From a virus, in IMG/VR virus record IMGVR_UViG_3300021368_000448, positions 1-29,581 of that record: a stretch of DNA of 29,581 nucleotides; one strand, written 5' to 3'. Below are positions 922-25,555 of this stretch, one piece after another. Within the stretch, counting starts at the first letter, position 1, and each line of letters begins with the position of its first letter. The notes below the pieces were generated by a model that saw nothing but the letters and a program-made list of their open reading frames with translations, did no database searches and was not told the DNA's origin. A program made the position numbers and the translations under genes.

Positions 922-2287
922 GACAACTATTCTACGGAACCTTGTTTTCAATGAAGAGTATTCTCGAAAGGTAATCCCTTTCATTCAACCTGAGTATTTT
1001 GATCAGAGAACTGAAAAGATTATCTTTGAGGAAATCACTCAATTCATTGTGAACTATGGTGCTTCTATTACGGTAGAGGCATTAGCAATTGAGATGGAGA
1101 ATCGCACAGATCTCTCCGAAACAGAAGTCAAAGAGTCCCGTGAAATCACTGCGGGTCTTACTGACGATCCAGTTGATGATCAGTGGTTGTTGGATACTAC
1201 TGAGAAGTGGTGCCGTGACCGTGCGATTTATCTGGCACTAATGGAATCTATCGGTATTGCTGATGGTGATAGTAAAGACAAAGGAAGGGATGCTATTCCT
1301 AGCATTCTTTCAGATGCATTGGCGGTCTCTTTTGACAACCACATTGGACACGATTACTTACAAGACTACGAGGAGCGTTATGAGTCTTACCATAAAAAGG
1401 AAGATCGGATTCCCTTTGACCTTGAATATCTCAACAAGATTACAAAAGGTGGGCTACCAAACAAGACTCTTAACATCGCTCTTGCTGGTACAGGCGTCGG
1501 CAAGTCTTTGTTCATGTGCCACCACGCTGCTTCCGTACTCCTTTCAGGACGTAATGTATTGTACATCACGCTTGAAATGGCTGAGGAAAAAATTGCAGAG
1601 CGCATTGATGCAAACCTTCTGAATGTTCCTATCCAGGATCTAACTGAACTTCCTAAGTCAACGTTTGAAAACAAGGTTACTAACCTTAGCAAGAAAACTC
1701 AAGGTACTCTTATAATTAAAGAGTATCCAACAGCAAGTGCTCATAGTGGACACTTTAAGGCACTTCTTAATGAGCTTGCACTTAAGAAATCATTTAGACC
1801 TGATATTATTTTCATTGATTACCTTAATATATGCGCTTCCTCCCGCTATAAGCAAGGTGGTTCTATCAATTCATATTCTTATATTAAGTCTATTGCGGAG
1901 GAGCTTAGAGGGATGGCTGTCGAAGCCCAGGTCCCTATCGTATCTGCCACCCAGACCACTCGTAGCGGTTATGGTAGCAGCGACGTTGATCTCACTGACA
2001 CTTCTGAGTCCTTTGGTCTCCCTGCTACTGCTGATCTTATGTTTGCCCTTATTGGCACTGAAGAGCTTGAACAGCTTGGACAGATTATGGTGAAGCAGTT
2101 GAAAAACCGATACAATGATCTTAATGTTCATAAGAGATTTGTGGTAGGAATTGACCGTGCAAAGATGCGTCTGTATGATTGTGAGCAGTCTGCTCAGACG
2201 GACATCCTTGACAGCGGACAGGAAGAGGAGTATAATAATGATGAAGAAAGAAAACCTAAGAAGTCATTCGATGGATTCAAATTCTGA
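908..2287 (+). CDS. gp41: Replicative DNA helicase, T4 gp41/DnaB type
   Basis: This is the hexameric 5'-3' helicase that unwinds the replication fork and works with the gp61 primase encoded further down. The 459-aa length fits the family (T4 gp41 is about 475 aa). The N-terminal half is a helical DnaB-like domain. The RecA-fold core carries Walker A GTGVGKS at residues 194-200, and Walker B (PDIIFID) ends at D304. ATG 908 was chosen over an upstream ATG at 878 because MERIETTIL matches the normal N-terminus and leaves only a 14-nt overlap with uvsX. The stop is followed one base later by the mazG start. No disrupted motif was seen. Confidence 0.95.
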   Translation: MERIETTILRNLVFNEEYSRKVIPFIQPEYFDQRTEKIIFEEITQFIVNYGASITVEALAIEMENRTDLSETEVKESREITAGLTDDPVDDQWLLDTTEKWCRDRAIYLALMESIGIADGDSKDKGRDAIPSILSDALAVSFDNHIGHDYLQDYEERYESYHKKEDRIPFDLEYLNKITKGGLPNKTLNIALAGTGVGKSLFMCHHAASVLLSGRNVLYITLEMAEEKIAERIDANLLNVPIQDLTELPKSTFENKVTNLSKKTQGTLIIKEYPTASAHSGHFKALLNELALKKSFRPDIIFIDYLNICASSRYKQGGSINSYSYIKSIAEELRGMAVEAQVPIVSATQTTRSGYGSSDVDLTDTSESFGLPATADLMFALIGTEELEQLGQIMVKQLKNRYNDLNVHKRFVVGIDRAKMRLYDCEQSAQTDILDSGQEEEYNNDEERKPKKSFDGFKF

Positions 2288-2288
2288 G

Positions 2289-2786
2289 ATGATGTTGAAA
2301 GTCCAAGCAAACTCTCCTTATAATGATGGGTGGACTCAACAATTTTACCGTGAACAACTAGAAAAAAACAAAACTATGAGTAAGCAAGTCGATTTTGATA
2401 AGTACCAAAAGTTTGTAGATGCCGTCACCTCTGACGAATCTACTGACTTCGTTGCCCTTGCTGACCGTCTGGTTGAACTGGATGAGAAAGGTGCTAACAT
2501 TGAGCGTCTTCTGACTGCTGGTGTCGGTATCAATGCTGAGGGTGGTGAGTTTCTTGAGATTATCAAGAAGATTATTTTCCAAGGCAAACCTTGGGATGAA
2601 GCAAACAAGGAGCACCTGTTCATTGAACTTGGTGACCTGATGTGGTATGTTGCTCAAGCATGTATGGCACTGGGATATTCCTTGGATGAAGTTGTTGCCC
2701 GTAACGTAAAGAAACTTGAAAAGCGTTATCCAGGTGGACAATTTGATGTATACTATTCTGAAAACCGTGAGGTAGGTGACCTATGA
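2289..2786 (+). CDS. mazG: MazG-type nucleotide pyrophosphohydrolase
   Basis: This all-alpha NTP pyrophosphatase hydrolyses nucleoside triphosphates to monophosphates. Phage MazG proteins are thought to shape the nucleotide or alarmone pool of the infected cyanobacterium. The Mg-binding signature ExxE...ExxD is complete: E84-G-G-E87 and, 25 residues later, E113-L-G-D116. The chosen start (MMLKVQANSPYND, 165 aa) lies directly after the gp41 stop. An internal ATG at 2376 would remove about 29 residues and still keep the fold, so the start is less certain than the family. The stop overlaps the next ATG (ATGA). The segment GYSLDEVVARNVKKLEKRYP is typical of the family's C-terminal helix. Confidence 0.88.
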   Translation: MMLKVQANSPYNDGWTQQFYREQLEKNKTMSKQVDFDKYQKFVDAVTSDESTDFVALADRLVELDEKGANIERLLTAGVGINAEGGEFLEIIKKIIFQGKPWDEANKEHLFIELGDLMWYVAQACMALGYSLDEVVARNVKKLEKRYPGGQFDVYYSENREVGDL

Positions 2787-2944
2787 TTGAGATTAAACTG
2801 GAAGTGAAACAGGCAGCAGCAGTCCGTGATGCTTTGTTTCGTCAAACAGCACAAGACAGTTATGAGTTTCCCTCTCAACGAACTGTAGATATTAGAGCAG
2901 CGATTATGTCTCTTGATACTGAATTGGAGAAACACACTCTGTAG
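2783..2944 (+). CDS. Small hypothetical protein, 53 aa
   Basis: This 53-codon ORF starts in an ATGA overlap with the mazG stop and ends 22 nt before the next gene. The product begins MIEIKLEVKQAAAVRDALFR and continues as a probably helical, mildly charged peptide with no Cys, no membrane segment and no motif I recognise. Coupling to mazG and codon use like its neighbours support it as real. It probably ends an early/middle operon, because a late-type promoter sequence lies immediately after its stop. Function unknown. Confidence 0.65.
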   Translation: MIEIKLEVKQAAAVRDALFRQTAQDSYEFPSQRTVDIRAAIMSLDTELEKHTL

Positions 2945-2945
2945 T

Positions 2946-2953
2946 CATAAATA
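2946..2953 (+). promoter_or_regulatory. T4-type late promoter (CATAAATA)
   Basis: CATAAATA matches seven of eight bases of the T4 late consensus TATAAATA. It sits just after the 53-aa gene and 13 nt before the next start codon, with an AAAGGA ribosome site between. It would start the run of late, structural-type genes from 2967. Confidence 0.55.
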
Positions 2954-2966
2954 ATCCAAAAGGATA

Positions 2967-3899
2967 ATGGCAGGACTGTCACCTACGGAACTAAAAAAGA
3001 GAAATAACTTTTCTCTTTTTAAACAAAGGATTACAAACAGGCAAGAATTTACTCTTGCAGAGGGTAAAGGTCAAAAAGTAAAAATAGATCATCGCGTTGC
3101 TGCCACAATTAGTTCCATAGATGATTTGGTTAATCAGTATAGTGTTGGTAAGAGTATCATTCTACCAACAGCAATGGGAACTCAGGTTAGACTGACCCAG
3201 TTATATAAGGATGCAGCATTCGTTGGTAGAACACAGAGTACTACCGCTGCTGAAGATTATCAAGTTAAAGTCATCAGAGAAAGTCTTGCTAAAATAAAAG
3301 ATAAACTAGGTAGTGACTACGTTGATTTGCAAGTAGGTAGAAAGTATTATAAAGTAGTTAATGTAGAGAGCACTCCAGGAACACCCAAATCAGATTTCCA
3401 TTTTAGAGATATTAATGGAAATATGGTTGGGTTTGTTTCACATAAAGATGGCAATTCACCTTCTGCTATTCAGCAGTGGGGTGGTATTAGTGAAAGGGGT
3501 GAACCCATACTAGCAGCACATCCAGAGACTAAAGCATTTGTTGAAACATTGAGAGCAATGTATCCAGGTGGTATTCCTCCAGCAACAACAGTTGCTAGAA
3601 AAATACAGGATAGAAATTTAAGAATGAAAGCAGTATATGGAAATCAATATACTGCAAATGCTAAACCTAGTACACAGAATGTAGACATACTACTTCAAGG
3701 TAATGTTTCTATCCAACAAATTGGAAATAGATATAAATTAACAGCACCAATAAATCATGATAATGGTGAAGATATTGTTGGTCAAAATGAACCTGTGTTC
3801 ATGGCGATATACAAAGGAGATAGAAGCAATTATGGTATAAAAGGTGCTAGATTAGTAATAAGTGCAAAGGGTGGTAGATCTATTAAACAGTATGTCTGA
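2967..3899 (+). CDS. Conserved cyanophage protein, possible PD-(D/E)XK-like nuclease fold
   Basis: This 310-aa protein begins MAGLSPTELKKRNNF behind AAAGGATA. The most telling stretch is residues 139-172: TPKSDF, then a Gly-containing turn, then GFVSHKDG, then QQWGG. A buried acidic residue (D143) followed by a beta strand ending in a Lys (K160) resembles the core of restriction-endonuclease-like folds, where D...(D/E)xK chelates the metal. I have the impression that related SHKDG...QWGG proteins occur in other large phages, but I could not check this. A final GARLVISAKGG strand is also phosphate-binding-like. The protein overlaps the next gene by 8 nt. The nuclease idea is inference; structural or DNA-processing roles remain possible. 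Confidence 0.6.
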   Translation: MAGLSPTELKKRNNFSLFKQRITNRQEFTLAEGKGQKVKIDHRVAATISSIDDLVNQYSVGKSIILPTAMGTQVRLTQLYKDAAFVGRTQSTTAAEDYQVKVIRESLAKIKDKLGSDYVDLQVGRKYYKVVNVESTPGTPKSDFHFRDINGNMVGFVSHKDGNSPSAIQQWGGISERGEPILAAHPETKAFVETLRAMYPGGIPPATTVARKIQDRNLRMKAVYGNQYTANAKPSTQNVDILLQGNVSIQQIGNRYKLTAPINHDNGEDIVGQNEPVFMAIYKGDRSNYGIKGARLVISAKGGRSIKQYV

Positions 3900-4095
3900 T
3901 TATATTCGTCAACTAATTGTAGAATATGAGGGAGTAGATTATAAGGACTTCGTTGCTTATGTCTACATGTCTTTAACTAAAAAGTCCCTCAAGTGTAAGG
4001 GTAAAAGCAAAGATAAATATATAAAGATACGAAACGACGTTCTTCGGTATATTGATTTAAACAAGAACGTTATTAGTTTAGAACTCAAGAAATAA
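3892..4095 (+). CDS. Small hypothetical protein, 67 aa
   Basis: The product starts MSDYIRQLIVEYEGVDYKDF at an ATG inside the last codons of the previous gene (8-nt overlap). An upstream in-frame ATG at 3862 would deepen the overlap and is less likely. The N-terminal half is aromatic and acidic; the middle is Lys-rich (KSLKCKGKSKDKY); the end is probably helical. No catalytic motif or membrane segment is visible. Its stop shares one base with the next start (TAATG), so it is probably co-translated with the putative virion proteins downstream. Function unknown. Confidence 0.7.
   Translation: MSDYIRQLIVEYEGVDYKDFVAYVYMSLTKKSLKCKGKSKDKYIKIRNDVLRYIDLNKNVISLELKK
4012..4019 (+). promoter_or_regulatory. 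Possible internal late promoter (GATAAATA)
   Basis: GATAAATA differs from the T4 late consensus at one base. It lies inside the 3' half of the 67-aa gene, 75 nt before the ATG at 4095. It could add late expression of the following genes. The motif is short and AT-rich, so chance is a real alternative. Confidence 0.3.
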
Positions 4096-19234: not shown

Positions 19235-19920
19235 TGGATATACCCAATATTGGAATTAGAAACATAGATGTTGATGATGTAAGTGTTCCAAACTGGATGC
19301 TTACACCACCAACTATCTCACCTTATGCTCCTGTAACTACACAGGTGGGAGTTCCAATTATTGATATACCAGGATGTGTTGAATCGCACCTTGATAATGA
19401 TAAGGGCACTAATGATAATCTGGTAGGGGATGACCCTAAGGGTGCCAGAGTGTTTTGTGATGGTAATATGCCATCGTTTAGTCCATTGGACTTTACGCCA
19501 GAGAACATGACTATCACTAAACCTACTGCAATTCCTAAGGTTCCCCCACCACCAGAACCGCCTGTTCCAGAAACACCAGAACTTCCAAAACCACCTGTTC
19601 AGACTGTCGTGGTTGAGGAACAACCAGAACCTGAACCAGAGATACCCTGGGTAGACAAATACTTACCTGCACCAGAAGCAGCGACTACAACTGCTGCTAT
19701 TGCTGTGGTTGCTACTACTTCTGCTTTGTTAGCGAAACCATTAGCAGATATTCTGCTAAAAGTGATTAAACCAGCAATCAAAAAAGTTCTTACTAAGATA
19801 TCAAAACTTAGGGGGAAGAAAATTGCAGTCCTCTCCTCAGGGGAGCGCCGAGCAGAGCAGCGTCAGAGAAACCATGCAATTCGCGATTTGCGCTCTGTTC
19901 TCCCCCGGAAGAAGGGATAG
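19234..19920 (+). CDS. Conserved cyanophage structural-type protein with Pro-rich linker, 228 aa
   Basis: The product begins MDIPNIGIRNIDVDDVSVPN. It has a conserved region (VGVPIIDIPGCVESHLDNDK, GARVFCDGNMPSFSPLDFTP) with two Cys. A Pro/Glu linker occupies about residues 100-140 (PPPPEPPVPETPELPKPPV). Then comes an Ala/Thr membrane-like segment (ATTTAAIAVVATTSALLAKP) and a strongly basic tail (KPAIKKVLTKISKLRGKKIA to RHAIRDL-type sequence). I recall this family from cyanophage genomes. Its last 113 nt overlap the minus-strand gene end to end. Particle or membrane location is unclear. Confidence 0.68.
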   Translation: MDIPNIGIRNIDVDDVSVPNWMLTPPTISPYAPVTTQVGVPIIDIPGCVESHLDNDKGTNDNLVGDDPKGARVFCDGNMPSFSPLDFTPENMTITKPTAIPKVPPPPEPPVPETPELPKPPVQTVVVEEQPEPEPEIPWVDKYLPAPEAATTTAAIAVVATTSALLAKPLADILLKVIKPAIKKVLTKISKLRGKKIAVLSSGERRAEQRQRNHAIRDLRSVLPRKKG

Positions 19921-20695
19921 TGTGCCTGTGAGGCATAACAGTATTTACATTATTAACCACAACATCAGCACAGATTGCTGCGAAAGGACTTTTAGGGTGG
20001 AAGTAAATACCCTGTTTCATTAAGTCGCCGCAGTTCTTAAGTCTAGCGATTTCAAAATCCAATCTCTTATTGGCAGTTAGTTGTTGCTGCAGAGCAATCT
20101 GAGTTGCTGCTGCTTTTTTACATTGATCTTGTAATTTTTTATCTAATGGACTAGACCAAGTAGCACTAAAACCAACAGAGAGACTGGTATTATTCTTTTG
20201 ACCAGTTCTTGTAGGAACATTATATAAGATGTCTCCTGGATTGTCTGGAGCACCATCTTCATCTAAGTCTCTCATATCATAGACTGGAGAATCAAAGTAA
20301 GCTTCATAGGGGTTCTGCATTGATACAGCACCCGTCACATATGGAGTGAAGTTTACTGTAGGTCCCTGACATTGAATACCTCCACCATATGTGTTGGTGA
20401 TATACGGTCCCTGTAAAACTTGGATTGCTTGATTGGTGACAGACCCAGAAGAATTAGCAACAGGGGCAGCAGTAGCGGAAACGCCGCCAACAGTTTCAGC
20501 ATAAGAAGGTGTTGCGAAGAGTAGAGATATTATTGCTGGAAGATACTTGTAGTATCGGTTACGCTTGTGACTTCCGTTGTTCTTTGAATTATTGTGTGAT
20601 TGCTTAAACCTGGACCAGATACTGTTTCTGTGAACTGAAACGCTTGACCTGGTGTTGACTGTCTGAATGTTGGGGTTGACGATATTCCTTTCCAT
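19808..20695 (-). CDS. Secreted conserved cyanophage protein, start codon uncertain
   Basis: The mature part is well formed: AETVGGVSATAAPVANSSGS, VTNQAIQVLQGPYITNTYGG, then a Cys (GIQCQGPTVNFTP). An Asp-rich turn (MRDLDEDGAPDNPGD) and a helical C-terminal half (QIALQQQLTANKRLDFEIAR) follow. The export signal is RNRYYKYLPAIISLLFATPS-YA. No ATG, GTG or TTG lies in frame close to it; the only ATG is at 20695, 60 residues upstream and inside the neighbouring gene. So either a long N-terminus, an unusual start, or a -1 shift from the upstream frame is needed. The 3' end overlaps the plus-strand gene by 113 nt. Confidence 0.75.
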   Translation of the reverse strand: MERNIVNPNIQTVNTRSSVSVHRNSIWSRFKQSHNNSKNNGSHKRNRYYKYLPAIISLLFATPSYAETVGGVSATAAPVANSSGSVTNQAIQVLQGPYITNTYGGGIQCQGPTVNFTPYVTGAVSMQNPYEAYFDSPVYDMRDLDEDGAPDNPGDILYNVPTRTGQKNNTSLSVGFSATWSSPLDKKLQDQCKKAAATQIALQQQLTANKRLDFEIARLKNCGDLMKQGIYFHPKSPFAAICADVVVNNVNTVMPHRHTIPSSGGEQSANRELHGFSDAALLGAPLRRGLQFSSP

Positions 20696-20990: not shown

Positions 20991-21500
20991 TCAGTCAATT
21001 ACAGTAATTTCAGTTACGAACTGAGCAGTTACACTAGTACCAGCACCTTGAGTAGTGCCAGTAACTGCAAGACTATGATCTTGACCAATGGTGCCAGGAC
21101 TGCCACCACCACTGTAATCACCAGCAGTACCTGCCGTGTATATGGTGCTTACAGTTCCAGTTCCATTGGAAGCATCACCTGCAGTAAAAGAATTGCTGTA
21201 AGAGAATGCATCACCAGCAGTTGTTTGATATGCAGTTGAGAATGAACCTGCTGCTGCACCATTTGTAAGGGTGCCAAGACCACCAACAACTAAGTCTGCG
21301 GAAGAAAGGGAACCGCCAGAATCATCCATAGTTATTCCACTACCAGAAACAGAAAAACTATTTGCGGTTCTAGAAGTGATGGTTCTAGTGGGGTCTACAG
21401 TGTGTTGTAAACTTGATTGATGTCTAGTAACAAGTCCGCCAGCATTTGCTGCACCTGCGGTCATCAGAAGCATACCAAAAGCAATCCAAGATGCTTTCAT
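20991..21500 (-). CDS. Secreted Gly/Ser/Thr-rich protein, 169 aa (paralogue)
   Basis: The signal peptide is MKASWIAFGMLLMTAGAANA and the mature chain begins GGLVTRHQ. The rest is Gly, Ser, Thr and Ala (SFSVSGSGITMDDSGGSLSS, TSVTAQFVTEITVID) and is probably beta-strand repeats. It is the first gene of the minus-strand island. A CTAAATA late-type element is about 25 nt upstream on that strand. Shares motif order with 20530-20979. Secreted adhesin-like or virion-surface roles would fit, but no known domain is visible. Confidence 0.7.
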   Translation of the reverse strand: MKASWIAFGMLLMTAGAANAGGLVTRHQSSLQHTVDPTRTITSRTANSFSVSGSGITMDDSGGSLSSADLVVGGLGTLTNGAAAGSFSTAYQTTAGDAFSYSNSFTAGDASNGTGTVSTIYTAGTAGDYSGGGSPGTIGQDHSLAVTGTTQGAGTSVTAQFVTEITVID

Positions 21501-21918: not shown

Positions 21919-21982
21919 CTCAGCTGGATAGAGCAACGGTTTTGTAAACCGTAGGTCGTCGGTTCAAGTCCGACGAGTGGCT
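21909..21982 (+). tRNA. tRNA-Thr (anticodon TGT)
   Basis: GCCACTC pairs with GAGTGGC. The D arm is AGCTCAGCTGGATAGAGC. ACGGT/ACCGT encloses loop TTTGTAA with anticodon TGT. The T arm is CGTCGGTTCAAGTCCGACG. Discriminator T; no encoded CCA. The first ten bases overlap the preceding CDS, and the last base is the first T of the next TTGACA. Confidence 0.95.
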
Positions 21983-22010
21983 TGACAGATAATATAAAAC
22001 CTGTTATAAT
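21982..22010 (+). promoter_or_regulatory. Consensus sigma70 promoter for tRNA-Gly
   Basis: TTGACA (21982-21987) and TATAAT (22005-22010) are both perfect with 17-bp spacing. The -35 element starts on the last base of tRNA-Thr. Transcription from about 22017 would carry the GAAA hairpin and tRNA-Gly. Confidence 0.9.
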
Positions 22011-22161: not shown

Positions 22162-22169
22162 TATAAATA
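22162..22169 (+). promoter_or_regulatory. T4-type late promoter (perfect TATAAATA)
   Basis: A perfect TATAAATA lies 105 nt before the ATG of the first barrel gene. The leader between contains three hairpins and a CTTAACCT half-site resembling a Pho box unit. Confidence 0.75.
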
Positions 22170-22174
22170 CTTAA

Positions 22175-22274: not shown

Positions 22275-22649
22275 ATGATCAAATCTGTATTCGCTGCAGC
22301 CGCTGCTGCTGTCGCTTTCGCTCCTGCTGCTGCCCTTGCAGGTCCCTACGTTAACGTAGAGGCAAACTCTGGTTGGACTGGTTCCGACTACAATGGTACT
22401 TCGACCGACCTGCACGTTGGTTATGAAGGCACCTTTGGTGATGACGCTTCCTACTACGTTCAAGGTGGTGCTACTGTAGTCAGCCCCGATGGTGGTGATT
22501 CTGACACCGTTCCTTCCGGTAAGGCAGGTCTGGGTCTGGCACTGACTGATTCTCTGGGTGCTTATGGTGAGGTTTCCTTCGTCGGTTCTGGCGATAAGGA
22601 CATCGACCGTGGATACGGCACCAAGATTGGTCTGAAGTACAACTTCTGA
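22275..22649 (+). CDS. Secreted outer-membrane-barrel-like protein, 124 aa (paralogue A)
   Basis: The signal peptide (MIKSVFAAAAAAVAFAPAAA, cleavage after ALA) releases a chain starting GPYVNVE. Alternating polar and hydrophobic residues with Gly/Tyr (DLHVGYEGTFGDDASYYVQG; GKAGLGLALTDSLGAYGEVS) and a final Phe (GLKYNF) resemble an outer-membrane beta barrel, though the 100-residue mature size is small for one. The paralogue at 22851 shares the leader, GPYV start and TEL/HVGYE strand. AGAGGTAA is the ribosome site. A strong terminator ends the unit. It may sit in the host outer membrane or on the virion. Confidence 0.68.
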   Translation: MIKSVFAAAAAAVAFAPAAALAGPYVNVEANSGWTGSDYNGTSTDLHVGYEGTFGDDASYYVQGGATVVSPDGGDSDTVPSGKAGLGLALTDSLGAYGEVSFVGSGDKDIDRGYGTKIGLKYNF

Positions 22650-22692: not shown

Positions 22693-22719
22693 ACCCGCCT
22701 TTTATGGGCGGGTTTTTTT
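22693..22719 (+). terminator. Intrinsic terminator after the first barrel gene
   Basis: ACCCGCC pairs with GGCGGGT around a 7-nt loop (TTTTATG), with a seven-T tract that includes the last stem base. It separates this gene from the Pho-box unit. Confidence 0.88.
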
Positions 22720-22772
22720 ATGGTTAAATTTATATTAACCCTCTCTATATACACCGGTTTCTCTCATATCAA

Positions 22773-22802
22773 CTTAACTTGATATTAACTTTATATTGAT
22801 AT
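22773..22802 (+). promoter_or_regulatory. Pho box (three 8-bp direct repeats, period 11)
   Basis: CTTAACTT (22773), ATTAACTT (22784) and ATTGATAT (22795) lie exactly 11 bases apart, with 3-bp gaps. This matches the cyanobacterial Pho box: tandem PyTTAAPyPy(T/A) units bound by PhoB/SphR. The third unit can act as -35, with TATTAC (22820-22825) as -10; TATAAT at 22800-22805 is an alternative. The unit downstream holds a barrel gene and pstS. No equally good set was noticed elsewhere in the window. Confidence 0.82.
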
Positions 22803-22850
22803 AATGTTTGAGTAAACCATATTACTTTAATTTTAAAAGAGGTATTACAA

Positions 22851-23222
22851 ATGAAAAACGCAATCGCTATTGCAACTCTGGCTGCTCTGTCTGCCGTATC
22901 TGCTGCTCCTGCCCTTGCTGGACCTTATGTTGGTGGTAAAATCACTGCCAAAGGAACTGATGAAGATTTCAAAAAGACCGAAACCGAACTGCGTGTTGGT
23001 TACGAAGCCAAGGTTGGCGCTCTGAAGCCTTACATCGAAGTTGGTCCTGCATGGGAAATGAAGGATGGCGAAGACGAAGCTTCCTTCTACAAGCAACTGG
23101 AAGTTGGTTCTAAAATCAAGATGACCGATAACCTGGGTGCTAAGGTCAAGGCTGAGTACACCATCGATGATGATAGTGCTGTTGATTGGAAGTACGAAGC
23201 TTCCCTCTCTTACGATTTCTGA
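22851..23222 (+). CDS. Secreted outer-membrane-barrel-like protein, 123 aa (paralogue B, Pho-linked)
   Basis: Signal peptide MKNAIAIATLAALSAVSAAP-ALA releases GPYVGGKITAKG. The layout copies paralogue A: a charged strand (KKTETELRVGYEAKVGALKP), repeated two-residue alternation (KVKAEYTIDDDSAVDWKYEA) and the terminal SLSYDF. The chain is more charged and has no Cys. AAAAGAGGT is its ribosome site. It is the first gene behind the Pho box and is 34 nt before pstS, so it is probably induced by phosphate starvation. A phosphate-selective outer-membrane entry role is tempting, but unproven. Confidence 0.7.
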   Translation: MKNAIAIATLAALSAVSAAPALAGPYVGGKITAKGTDEDFKKTETELRVGYEAKVGALKPYIEVGPAWEMKDGEDEASFYKQLEVGSKIKMTDNLGAKVKAEYTIDDDSAVDWKYEASLSYDF

Positions 23223-23256
23223 TAGAAAATAATATACAACCACTCACGGTAAAGAA

Positions 23257-24225
23257 ATGAAATCACTTCTCTCTATCGGTGTCGCAGCTGCCGCAATTGC
23301 TGCTCCCTCTGCCGCCATGGCAGACACTCTGAATGCTGCTGGTGCATCATTCCCTGCTCCAATCTATCAGGCATGGTTCCAAAACTATGCTAAGCAGACT
23401 GGTAATCAGGTTAACTACCAGGCAGTTGGTTCTGGTGCTGGCGTTCGTCAGTACAAAGCAGGAACTACTGACTTTGGTGCTTCTGACAAGGCAGTTTCTG
23501 ATAAGAAGCTGAAGGGTATTTCCCGTCCTATGGTTCAAATCCCTATGACTGGTGGAGCAATCGCGGTTGCTTATAACAAGCCAGGTTGCGATCTTAAGAT
23601 TACACAAACTGAATTGGTTCGTGTTTTCTATGGTGATATTGATAACTGGTCTCATTTCGGTTGTGGCAATAAGCCCATCACTGTTGCTGTCCGTTCTGAC
23701 GGTTCTGGCACCACTGCTGGGTTTACCAACTCCCTCTCTTCTTTCTCTAGAAAGTGGAAACTGATGGTTGGTCGTGGTAAGGCAATCAACTGGCCTGCTA
23801 GCAACACTGTTGCTGGTAAGGGTAACTCTGGCGTTGCTGGTGTTATCAAGAATACAGAAGGTGCTATTGGTTATCTGAACTATGGTTATGTTGTTGGGGG
23901 TAAGTTCCAACAAGCTGCTGTCCAAAATAAGGCAGGTAACTTTGTAAAGGCAAACAGTGAAACATCTGCTGCTGGACTTGCACAAATCAAACTTGATAGT
24001 AAACTGCGTGGAACCGACGCTAATCCCGCTGGTGCAAATGCATTCCCTATCGTTTCTTTGACTTGGATCCTTGCGGAACCAGGTCATAAGGTTGACTCTG
24101 TTCAACCTGCTCTTCGTTATATGTTGAGTGAAGAAGCACAAGGTATTTCAGATTCTTTGGGTTATGTACCTCTCCCCGAGTCTCTTCGACAGAAATCTCT
24201 TGCTGCTGTTGAATCGCTCCGTTGA
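23257..24225 (+). CDS. pstS: Periplasmic phosphate-binding protein PstS
   Basis: This 322-aa protein is the substrate-binding part of a PstSCAB transporter. A signal peptide (MKSLLSIGVAAAAIAAPSAA-MA) leads to DTLNAAGASFPAPIYQAWF, the classic PstS opening. Phosphate-contacting segments are present: VGSGAGVRQYKAGTTDFGAS and RSDGSGTTAGFTNSLSS. It is a host-derived auxiliary metabolic gene: infected cells under phosphate limitation could keep uptake going with the host permease. It sits in a unit headed by the Pho box and ends at a strong terminator. No pstC, pstA or pstB is seen here. Confidence 0.96.
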   Translation: MKSLLSIGVAAAAIAAPSAAMADTLNAAGASFPAPIYQAWFQNYAKQTGNQVNYQAVGSGAGVRQYKAGTTDFGASDKAVSDKKLKGISRPMVQIPMTGGAIAVAYNKPGCDLKITQTELVRVFYGDIDNWSHFGCGNKPITVAVRSDGSGTTAGFTNSLSSFSRKWKLMVGRGKAINWPASNTVAGKGNSGVAGVIKNTEGAIGYLNYGYVVGGKFQQAAVQNKAGNFVKANSETSAAGLAQIKLDSKLRGTDANPAGANAFPIVSLTWILAEPGHKVDSVQPALRYMLSEEAQGISDSLGYVPLPESLRQKSLAAVESLR

Positions 24226-24238
24226 TTAAATTCTCATA

Positions 24239-24265
24239 CCCCACCCTTCGGGGTGGGGTTTTTTT
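24239..24265 (+). terminator. Strong intrinsic terminator after pstS
   Basis: CCCCACCC pairs perfectly with GGGTGGGG through a TTCG tetraloop (24247-24250), with seven Ts. It lies at the very start of the next gene, so the propeller gene needs read-through or its own promoter. Confidence 0.95.
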
Positions 24266-25555
24266 ATGCTCTTTACCCCCTTTAAAGATATGTTAGAACT
24301 TCTTCAATTAATGGCATTGCCGGTAGTAACTTTAGGTACTGTCATGGGAGCTGATATCTCCCCACTACAGAATGTATATGCGGATAAAGATGCACCATCT
24401 TTTGAGCAAGTTGGTAAGTATGGTGTCGGTGAAGATTCCGCTGCTGAAATTATTGCTTCCGATGGAACAATCCTCGCCTATACAAATTCAGATAAAGGAA
24501 GTGTTGACTTCGTTAACATTGCTGATCCTACCAATCCCACTAGTGTTGCTTCTGTGGATGTTGGTGGAGAACCCACGAGTGTTGCAATCCGTCGTGGATA
24601 TGCCATTGCTGCAGTCAATACAAGTGAATCCTATACTAACCCTTCGGGACAAGTCATAGTAATTGATTTGTTTGACTATGAGATTGTCAAACAGATTCCT
24701 CTTGCAGGACAACCAGACTCTATTGCTCTTGATCCTAACGGCAACTTTGCTGCTGTTGCCATTGAGAATGAAAGAAATGAGGACATCAATGGTGAGATGA
24801 TCCCTCAGTATCCTGCTGGTAATCTGGCGTTGATTGATCTTAGAGGAAATGTAACTTATGTCGATCTTACAGGCATTGCTGATATTGCTCCTAGTGATCC
24901 TGAACCTGAGTTCGTTGATATCAATGATAAGAGTGAGATCGTTGTTACATTACAAGAGAACAATCATATTGTGGTTGTATCTAGTGATGGCACTATCCTC
25001 AACCACTTCTCCGCTGGCGCAGTTCAGTTAGACAACATTGACACTGTGAAGGATGGTGTCTATAATCCTGTTAACAGCAGATATTCACGTCGTGAGCCTG
25101 ATGCTGTTACCTGGATCGATTCTGATCACTTTGCCACTGCCAATGAGGGTGATTACAAACTCAAAGGATATCAGGGAACCCACAAACGTGGTGGTTCTAG
25201 GGGGTGGACAATTTTCCATAAAGATGGTACAGTGGTATATGAATCGGGTGCTTCCTTTGAAACTGCACTTGCTGAAGCAGGTTACTGGCCTGATAAGCGT
25301 GCTGGTAAGAAAGGTGTTGAACCAGAATCAATTACTCTTGGAACCTATGGTGGTCGTCGTTTGATCTTCGTTGGTGCTGAGAGAGCAAATGCTGTTGGCG
25401 TTTATGATGCTACAGATTTGACTGCTCCTAAGTTGATTCAGATTCTCCCTACAGGTAAAGCACCTGAAGGTCTTCTTGCTCTGGATAATGAAGGTCTCTT
25501 CATTACTTCCAATGAGAAGGATGCTAAGAACTCTATCTCCATCTTTAAATTCTGA
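24266..25555 (+). CDS. Beta-propeller protein of choice-of-anchor I/alkaline phosphatase-like type
   Basis: The N-terminus is hydrophobic (LLQLMALPVVTLGTVMGA), a probable export segment. Repeated blades follow (VDFVNIADPTNPTSVASVDV; AIAAVN; VIVIDLFDYEIVKQIPLAGQ; LIDLRGNVTYVDL), each Gly/Asp-rich with a hydrophobic strand. Such repeats are seen in choice-of-anchor I proteins and in atypical cyanobacterial alkaline phosphatases/phytase-like enzymes. The neighbouring pstS makes a phosphate-scavenging role plausible, but I cannot identify a catalytic set. ATGs at 24266, 24290 and 24311 are possible starts. The first is directly on the terminator T-run and lacks a ribosome site, so a later one may be correct. 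Confidence 0.75.
   Translation: MLFTPFKDMLELLQLMALPVVTLGTVMGADISPLQNVYADKDAPSFEQVGKYGVGEDSAAEIIASDGTILAYTNSDKGSVDFVNIADPTNPTSVASVDVGGEPTSVAIRRGYAIAAVNTSESYTNPSGQVIVIDLFDYEIVKQIPLAGQPDSIALDPNGNFAAVAIENERNEDINGEMIPQYPAGNLALIDLRGNVTYVDLTGIADIAPSDPEPEFVDINDKSEIVVTLQENNHIVVVSSDGTILNHFSAGAVQLDNIDTVKDGVYNPVNSRYSRREPDAVTWIDSDHFATANEGDYKLKGYQGTHKRGGSRGWTIFHKDGTVVYESGASFETALAEAGYWPDKRAGKKGVEPESITLGTYGGRRLIFVGAERANAVGVYDATDLTAPKLIQILPTGKAPEGLLALDNEGLFITSNEKDAKNSISIFKF

Follow-up and report, generated by a model that had tools for sequence, protein, structure and literature searches.

The stretch of DNA studied here (the window) is a virus fragment of 29.6 kb (29,581 nucleotides; IMG/VR record IMGVR_UViG_3300021368_000448) that carries ribonucleotide reductase, primase, helicase and tRNA genes and whose DNA is strongly similar to that of cyanomyoviruses. 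We analysed a phosphate gene cassette in it, in which a Pho box, the direct-repeat site of the host regulator PhoB (SphR), precedes a gene for a small barrel protein, the phosphate-binding protein gene pstS and the phosphatase-like gene phoA. A sequence-only reading of the locus had proposed three Pho repeats above a secreted barrel-like protein and pstS, with a secreted propeller protein downstream. The cassette consists of the following features:

22735–22760, plus strand: TTAA-N7-TATATA-N4-GGTTT, conserved element 5′ of the Pho box (seen by eye in many relatives; CTATATA tallied)
22762–22769, plus strand: weak first Pho repeat TCTCATAT (register set by the spacing to the −10)
22773–22780, plus strand: strong Pho repeat CTTAACTT (host-matrix scan)
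22784–22791, plus strand: strong Pho repeat ATTAACTT (host-matrix scan)
22795–22802, plus strand: weak third repeat of the sequence-only reading, ATTGATAT (overlaps the −10)
22800–22805, plus strand: TATAAT, −10 of the Pho promoter (perfect match; position tallied in relatives)
22851–23222, plus strand: first gene of the unit, encoding a Pho-type Phage_OMP (DUF680) barrel orthologous to PSSM2_247 of P-SSM2 (PF24653, tree, structure model and fold matches)
23257–24225, plus strand: pstS, periplasmic phosphate-binding protein (TIGR00975, phrog_5385, solved relatives 7xg7 and 7xg8)
24238–24265, plus strand: strong intrinsic terminator between pstS and phoA (9-bp GC stem, T run)
24266–25555, plus strand: cyanophage phoA, atypical alkaline phosphatase-like, choice-of-anchor I (phrog_23282, PF22494, homology to phoA of S-SM1 and S-SM2)

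Genes of the cassette

The first gene under the box had been read as a secreted barrel-like protein, and its product matched PF24653 (Phage_OMP) with 118.5 bits (cutoff 27). The second gene is pstS, as proposed: it scored 249.3 bits against the equivalog model TIGR00975 (cutoff 205), and its product matched the solved relative 7xg7 at an E-value of 1.6×10−121. The propeller lies downstream as described, but it is no additional secreted protein: it is the product of the known phage phoA gene (phrog_23282, E-value 5×10−216) and is 71–72% identical to phoA of S-SM1 and S-SM2. Comparison of N-termini suggests that the conserved phoA start is probably the ATG at 24290 rather than 24266. Joint transcription of phoA with the genes before it is less certain, given the terminator at 24238–24265.

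A Pho box upstream of the barrel gene

We scanned the whole window on both strands with a matrix built from cyanobacterial host Pho boxes only (Su 2007, PMC1906773) and containing zero phage sequences; p-values were obtained from dinucleotide shuffles of the intergenic region. The top two-repeat site of the window was CTTAACTT-GAT-ATTAACTT at 22773–22791 (15.9 bits, p=0.0065). The three-repeat version (22773–22802) also ranked first (16.05 bits, p=0.0155), but its third repeat matches at 5 of 8 positions, adds next to nothing to the score and overlaps TATAAT. The box thus has the 8-bp repeats like CTTAACCT and the 11-bp period that had been described, with two strong repeats and a weak third. 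Eight base pairs lie between the second strong repeat and TATAAT at 22800. Of 51 pstS-linked loci in relatives whose box scores well, 41 start their first strong repeat 38–39 nt ahead of the −10. In S-TIM4, where no barrel gene adjoins pstS, the box sits directly upstream of pstS itself (14.3 bits). A TTAA pair at 22723–22741 (11.65 bits) was rejected as a Pho box; it belongs to a different conserved element, without Pho geometry.

Two barrel clades with different promoters

The Phage_OMP/DUF680 family comprises two deep paralog clades that differ in their promoters. In a tree of 62 aligned barrel proteins, nearly all taken from pstS loci, all but one of the pstS-adjoining copies formed one group (the Pho clade), and all upstream copies formed the other (the late clade), which included the exceptional copy of S-SKS1. 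The copy of the podovirus P-SSP2 also fell within the Pho clade; it lies at 2441–2800 of its locus (L068) between hli and psbA, with no adjoining pstS and no recognisable Pho box.

A second set of loci was gathered by the barrel itself, ignoring pstS, and repeats were removed. It held 69 copies of the Pho clade and 114 of the late clade; the loci are related and not independent, and denominators vary with the sequence available. In the Pho clade, pstS was directly next in 56 of the 63 loci long enough to judge the next gene, whereas in the late clade it was directly next in 3 of 109 and separated by one gene in 39, which have the tandem arrangement. A Pho score of at least 11 was found at 51 of the 56 pstS-linked Pho-clade loci and at 6/110 late-clade loci (Fisher p=5×10−30), the latter also being the background rate of the matrix. 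Conversely, the phage promoter element TATAAATA lay upstream of 66 of 110 late-clade copies and 1 of 68 Pho-clade copies (p=9×10−18). The proteins contain on average 11.1 lysines in the Pho clade and 3.1 in the late clade, and all 23 aligned Pho-clade members matched PF24653.

S-SKS1 fits this rule, because its pstS-adjoining copy belongs to the late clade and has no Pho box there. Seven Pho-clade copies had no pstS directly after them: two retained a Pho box and are followed by pstS at a distance of about 1.25 kb; two preceded phoA on contigs that soon end (Pho scores 5–6); and three had no phosphate gene in reach (Pho scores under 4).

A barrel gene as first member of the unit had been considered less familiar. 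Instead, every isolate compared that has this gene beside pstS has it directly upstream (P-SSM2, S-SM1, S-SM2, Syn19, Syn30, S-SSM5, S-SSM7, Bellamy, S-TIM5, S-BM1, P-RSM1, S-H38, SynMITS9220M01, Sf-CH5 and S-SKS1). At another related locus (L017, IMGVR_UViG_3300021356_001968, 1445–4032), the order is barrel-phoA-pstS rather than barrel-pstS-phoA, and the Pho box still precedes the barrel.

The literature that we found handles both barrel types as a single 'DUF680'. Loss of S-TIM4 ORF224 was favoured on Synechococcus WH8102 (PMC6224464); judged off the tree, this protein reads as late type: its gene is preceded by TATAAATA, lacks a Pho box and lies away from pstS, and the protein is poor in lysine. 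A DUF680 protein was also detected in S-SZBM1 virions (PMC9146016), and that copy lies outside both clades in the 62-protein tree. These published results say little about the Pho-type barrel, because the copies concerned are of the late type or outside both clades.

The upstream late-type unit

The window holds both kinds of barrel side by side, first the TATAAATA unit, then a terminator, then the Pho-box unit. The sequence-only reading missed the paralogous barrel and both terminators. The upstream unit consists of:

22162–22169, plus strand: TATAAATA, T4-type phage late promoter of the late-type barrel gene (the element found 5′ of the late-type copies counted above)
22275–22649, plus strand: late-type Phage_OMP paralog, 124 aa (PF24653, phrog_417; late clade on the tree)
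22693–22719, plus strand: intrinsic terminator ending the late-type barrel unit, before the Pho unit (8-bp stem, T run)

The product of 22275–22649 matched PF24653 with 175.3 bits (cutoff 27). A second Pho-like site, CTTAACCT at 22170 (15.6 bits), was rejected as a control site: it abuts the late promoter on its downstream side, and other late-type copies (L021, L061) repeat this arrangement, with CTTAACCT likewise following TATAAATA at an offset of 8 nt. Further upstream, a perfect sigma-70 promoter (TTGACA-17-TATAAT with TG, 21982–22010) lies directly 3′ of tRNA-Thr, between it and tRNA-Gly. Before the tRNA cluster, divergently on the minus strand, are two conserved cyanophage genes of unknown function (phrog_848/phrog_564; 19808–20695 and 20991–21500).

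Structure and charge of the barrels

Structure prediction had been proposed as a check on the barrel, and AlphaFold gave six strands for each of the two window proteins (pLDDT 78 and 74.5). The signal peptide with its AxAGPY junction, the alternating strand pattern and the terminal F are those of an outer-membrane barrel. Each of the two has a C-terminal F and a Y at −3, as expected for substrates of the BAM machinery. Strand charges lay on one face to 94% (permutation mean 64%, 0/5000 as high), and to 91% in the other copy (mean 68%). The matching solved folds were outer-membrane barrels (KdgM, Z 9.7; OprF, 9.2; OmpX, first in Foldseek; OmpA, NspA and Ail), at low to middling significance. 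A strict OmpA-type 8-stranded barrel was not trusted as a model, as the Z of 12.4 to OprF for the late-type protein relies on signal-peptide residues (range 3–124, pLDDT under 50).

On the inner, non-lipid face, the calculated net charge was about +2.9 in the lysine-rich Pho clade and about −2.8 in the acidic late clade; the lipid face was picked by hydrophobicity, which makes the location of the charges partly circular but not the sign of the net charge. In the last hairpin (105/111), invariant interior residues K100-E116 and E102-K114 oppose each other across strands (the positions of either pair sum to 216; positions from the model). Such pairing is as compatible with a closed barrel like OmpA as with a pore.

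The Pho-type protein may accordingly be a closed OmpA/OmpX-like barrel that alters the surface of starved cells, with effects such as superinfection exclusion, stability, grazing or adsorption, and passes no phosphate, its linkage to pstS reflecting co-regulation only. The K-E pairs, the closed 8-stranded OmpX, OmpA and Ail among the nearest solved folds and the DUF680 protein in S-SZBM1 virions (PMC9146016) favour this possibility; the strict linkage to pstS, absent from the sister clade, and the opposite interior charge of the two clades speak against it. We give it slightly less than an even chance.

A bolder proposal is that the Pho-clade barrel is a phage-only outer-membrane pore, induced by phosphate starvation and with a cationic lumen, perhaps formed of paired six-stranded halves of a KdgM-like 12-stranded barrel, and that the acidic late paralog has a separate late or virion-related role. 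We regard it as rather unlikely, because the cationic interior suits a phosphate pore but the invariant K-E pairs resemble closed barrels. Like PhoE and OprP/OprO, with which we compare it by analogy only, the protein is of outer-membrane type, predicted to be induced with pst genes and lysine-rich inside. However, no sequence relation to them was found, and it is not a phosphate-selective porin of their kind: it has about 100 residues and six predicted strands, in contrast to 16-stranded trimers, and matched no porin profile. In Pfam, no porin family appeared beyond OMP_b-brl (below cutoff) and a weak PagL match, and our literature search found no paper proposing a cyanophage-encoded porin. 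A role for the Pho-type barrel in bringing phosphate across the outer membrane is a hypothesis.

The barrel seems confined to phages. A scan of 84,980 bacterial and archaeal genomes, made with short peptide patterns that distant relatives may escape, found it only in two contigs, of one Lewinella metagenome-assembled genome. On one of these (L155, CAJXMP010000220.1) the barrel is accompanied by a pstS 69% identical to that of the window. A host origin was rejected: the cyanophage-like pstS suggests that the contigs are probably mis-binned cyanophage DNA.

A phosphate-scavenging cassette under probable host control

The explanation that we consider likely as a whole is a cyanomyovirus phosphate-scavenging cassette under host PhoB control. 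When the host is starved of phosphate, PhoB (SphR) would bind the TTAA-type direct repeats at about 22762–22791 and recruit the host sigma-70 RNA polymerase to TATAAT at 22800. One transcript would then encode the predicted outer-membrane barrel (22851) and PstS (23257) and end at the terminator 24238–24265, and phoA (24290) would be reached via read-through or from another promoter. PstS would supply phosphate to the host Pst importer, and organic esters would yield phosphate through the action of PhoA. For the barrel, predicted to reside in the outer membrane, the most likely role is either to help phosphate or organic phosphate get in or to adapt the cell surface during starvation and infection. 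The 22275 barrel, a long-separated paralog, would be expressed late from the phage TATAAATA promoter, outside the phosphate response.

Several observations weigh against this explanation. The K-E pairs described above concern the barrel. As for phoA, its match to PF22494 is modest (38.1 bits, above the cutoff of 32), and it stays below the cutoff of NCBIfam NF038117 (choice-of-anchor I; 128.6 vs 300 bits). As for the promoter, predicted Pho boxes in S-PM2d proved unreliable predictors of PhoB binding (PMC10976474), and the window places its first strong repeat 27 nt from the −10, closer than most relatives by exactly one 11-bp period. The same 27-nt spacing occurs in SynMITS9220M01 and at one further locus (L128). 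Counting 38 nt back from the −10 of the window leads to an in-register triplet, TCTCATAT/CTTAACTT/ATTAACTT, at 22762–22791; we therefore place the box in this register, since the spacing to the −10 is conserved in relatives and the window is short by one period. For phoA, no solved-structure homologs were found at a useful E-value, and the literature labels the phage gene a putative phosphatase (PMC10976474).

The box might instead be fortuitous, a TTAA-rich stretch within a promoter rich in A+T, with the unit driven by a PhoB-independent phage promoter, TTAA-N7-TATATA-N4-GGTTT (22735–22760). Many relatives keep this element 5′ of their Pho box, and S-SSM7 and P-SSM4 have no other recognisable promoter-like element; on this comparison it is a probable second promoter of phage type. 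Together with the mispredicted boxes of S-PM2d this lends the idea some weight, but the host-site matrix ranks the box first in the window, its distance to the −10 is conserved, and it accompanies the pstS-linked loci and not the sister clade, so that a chance match appears improbable. Fixed geometry and gene linkage are stronger evidence of a Pho box here than a single box match, and we predict that PhoB binds it. Comparison with relatives supports host-type Pho control of the barrel-pstS unit, and also a phage that encodes a protein of outer-membrane type together with a periplasmic protein that binds phosphate. The observations of the sequence-only reading were confirmed in part and its interpretation supported in part, and its regulatory proposal is likely right.

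The position of phoA is less clear-cut, and the gene may depend on read-through. The terminator at 24238–24265 could uncouple it from the Pho unit in this phage, leaving it to another route of expression or to hardly any. The strong GC stem and T run stand directly between pstS and phoA, and the terminator has no counterpart in S-SM1, S-SM2, S-BM1, Syn30 and Sf-CH5, where the two genes are directly coupled; in a related locus (L010), a similar terminator is present and phoA lies 2 kb further on. On the other side, the gene order is kept, and read-through of phage terminators is common. Uncoupling could well be the case, with our judgement leaning a little the other way. Inside the phoA coding sequence, at 25038–25066, there is also a perfect TTGACA-17-TATAAT, directed toward downstream small genes.

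Relation to known cassettes

The cassette is a new instance of a known, ordinary cyanomyovirus arrangement, because S-SM2 and others share its gene order and the literature already links DUF680 to Pho boxes. The closest case is S-SM2 (SSM2_217-220, GU071095; Sullivan 2010, PMC3037559), where DUF680, DUF680, pstS and phoA are the four genes of the window in the same order, the DNA being about 75% identical across 88% of the query, with Pho-like repeats 5′ of the second DUF680 gene. In S-SM2, however, the pstS-phoA gap is 13 nt with a ribosome-binding site, where the window has a terminator; the box of the window also lies 11 bp nearer its −10 than the rule of the relatives. S-SM1, S-BM1 and Syn30 likewise have a Pho-box-driven Pho-clade barrel, pstS and phoA. 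They carry a single DUF680 gene with no late-type barrel directly upstream. Their cassette stands after hsp20 and, in S-SM1 and S-BM1, before gp43; that of the window is preceded by a tRNA-Gly gene and the late-type barrel.

In P-SSM2, tandem barrels, late type then Pho type, are followed by pstS (PSSM2_246-247-248), and PSSM2_247 has a Pho box with 38-nt spacing; unlike the window, the region compared holds no phoA, and the host is Prochlorococcus. The P-SSM2 gene 'g247' was reportedly described by Lin in 2016 as induced, with pstS, under phosphate limitation. S-SM1, S-BM1 and P-SSM2 showed no delayed lysis under low phosphate (PMC10976474). The adjoining phoA and the promoters around pstS have been described before (Sullivan 2010, PMC3037559), DUF680/PhCOG173 has been tied to phosphate limitation and Pho boxes (Enav 2018, PMC6224464; PMC9146016), and cyanophage pstS is controlled by host PhoBR (PMC10976474).

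The new content is modest: 'DUF680' is two things, with matching promoters and opposite interiors, and a terminator in this phage may uncouple phoA. Work on phosphate should follow the pstS-adjoining, Pho-boxed, lysine-rich type, and the data on S-TIM4 ORF224 and S-SZBM1 should not be taken as evidence on it. The cassette would rank among the clearest examples in which a virus responds to a nutrient sensor of its host. If the barrel were indeed a pore, the virus would contribute the outer-membrane component of a route for nutrient uptake, from sea water to the Pst importer.

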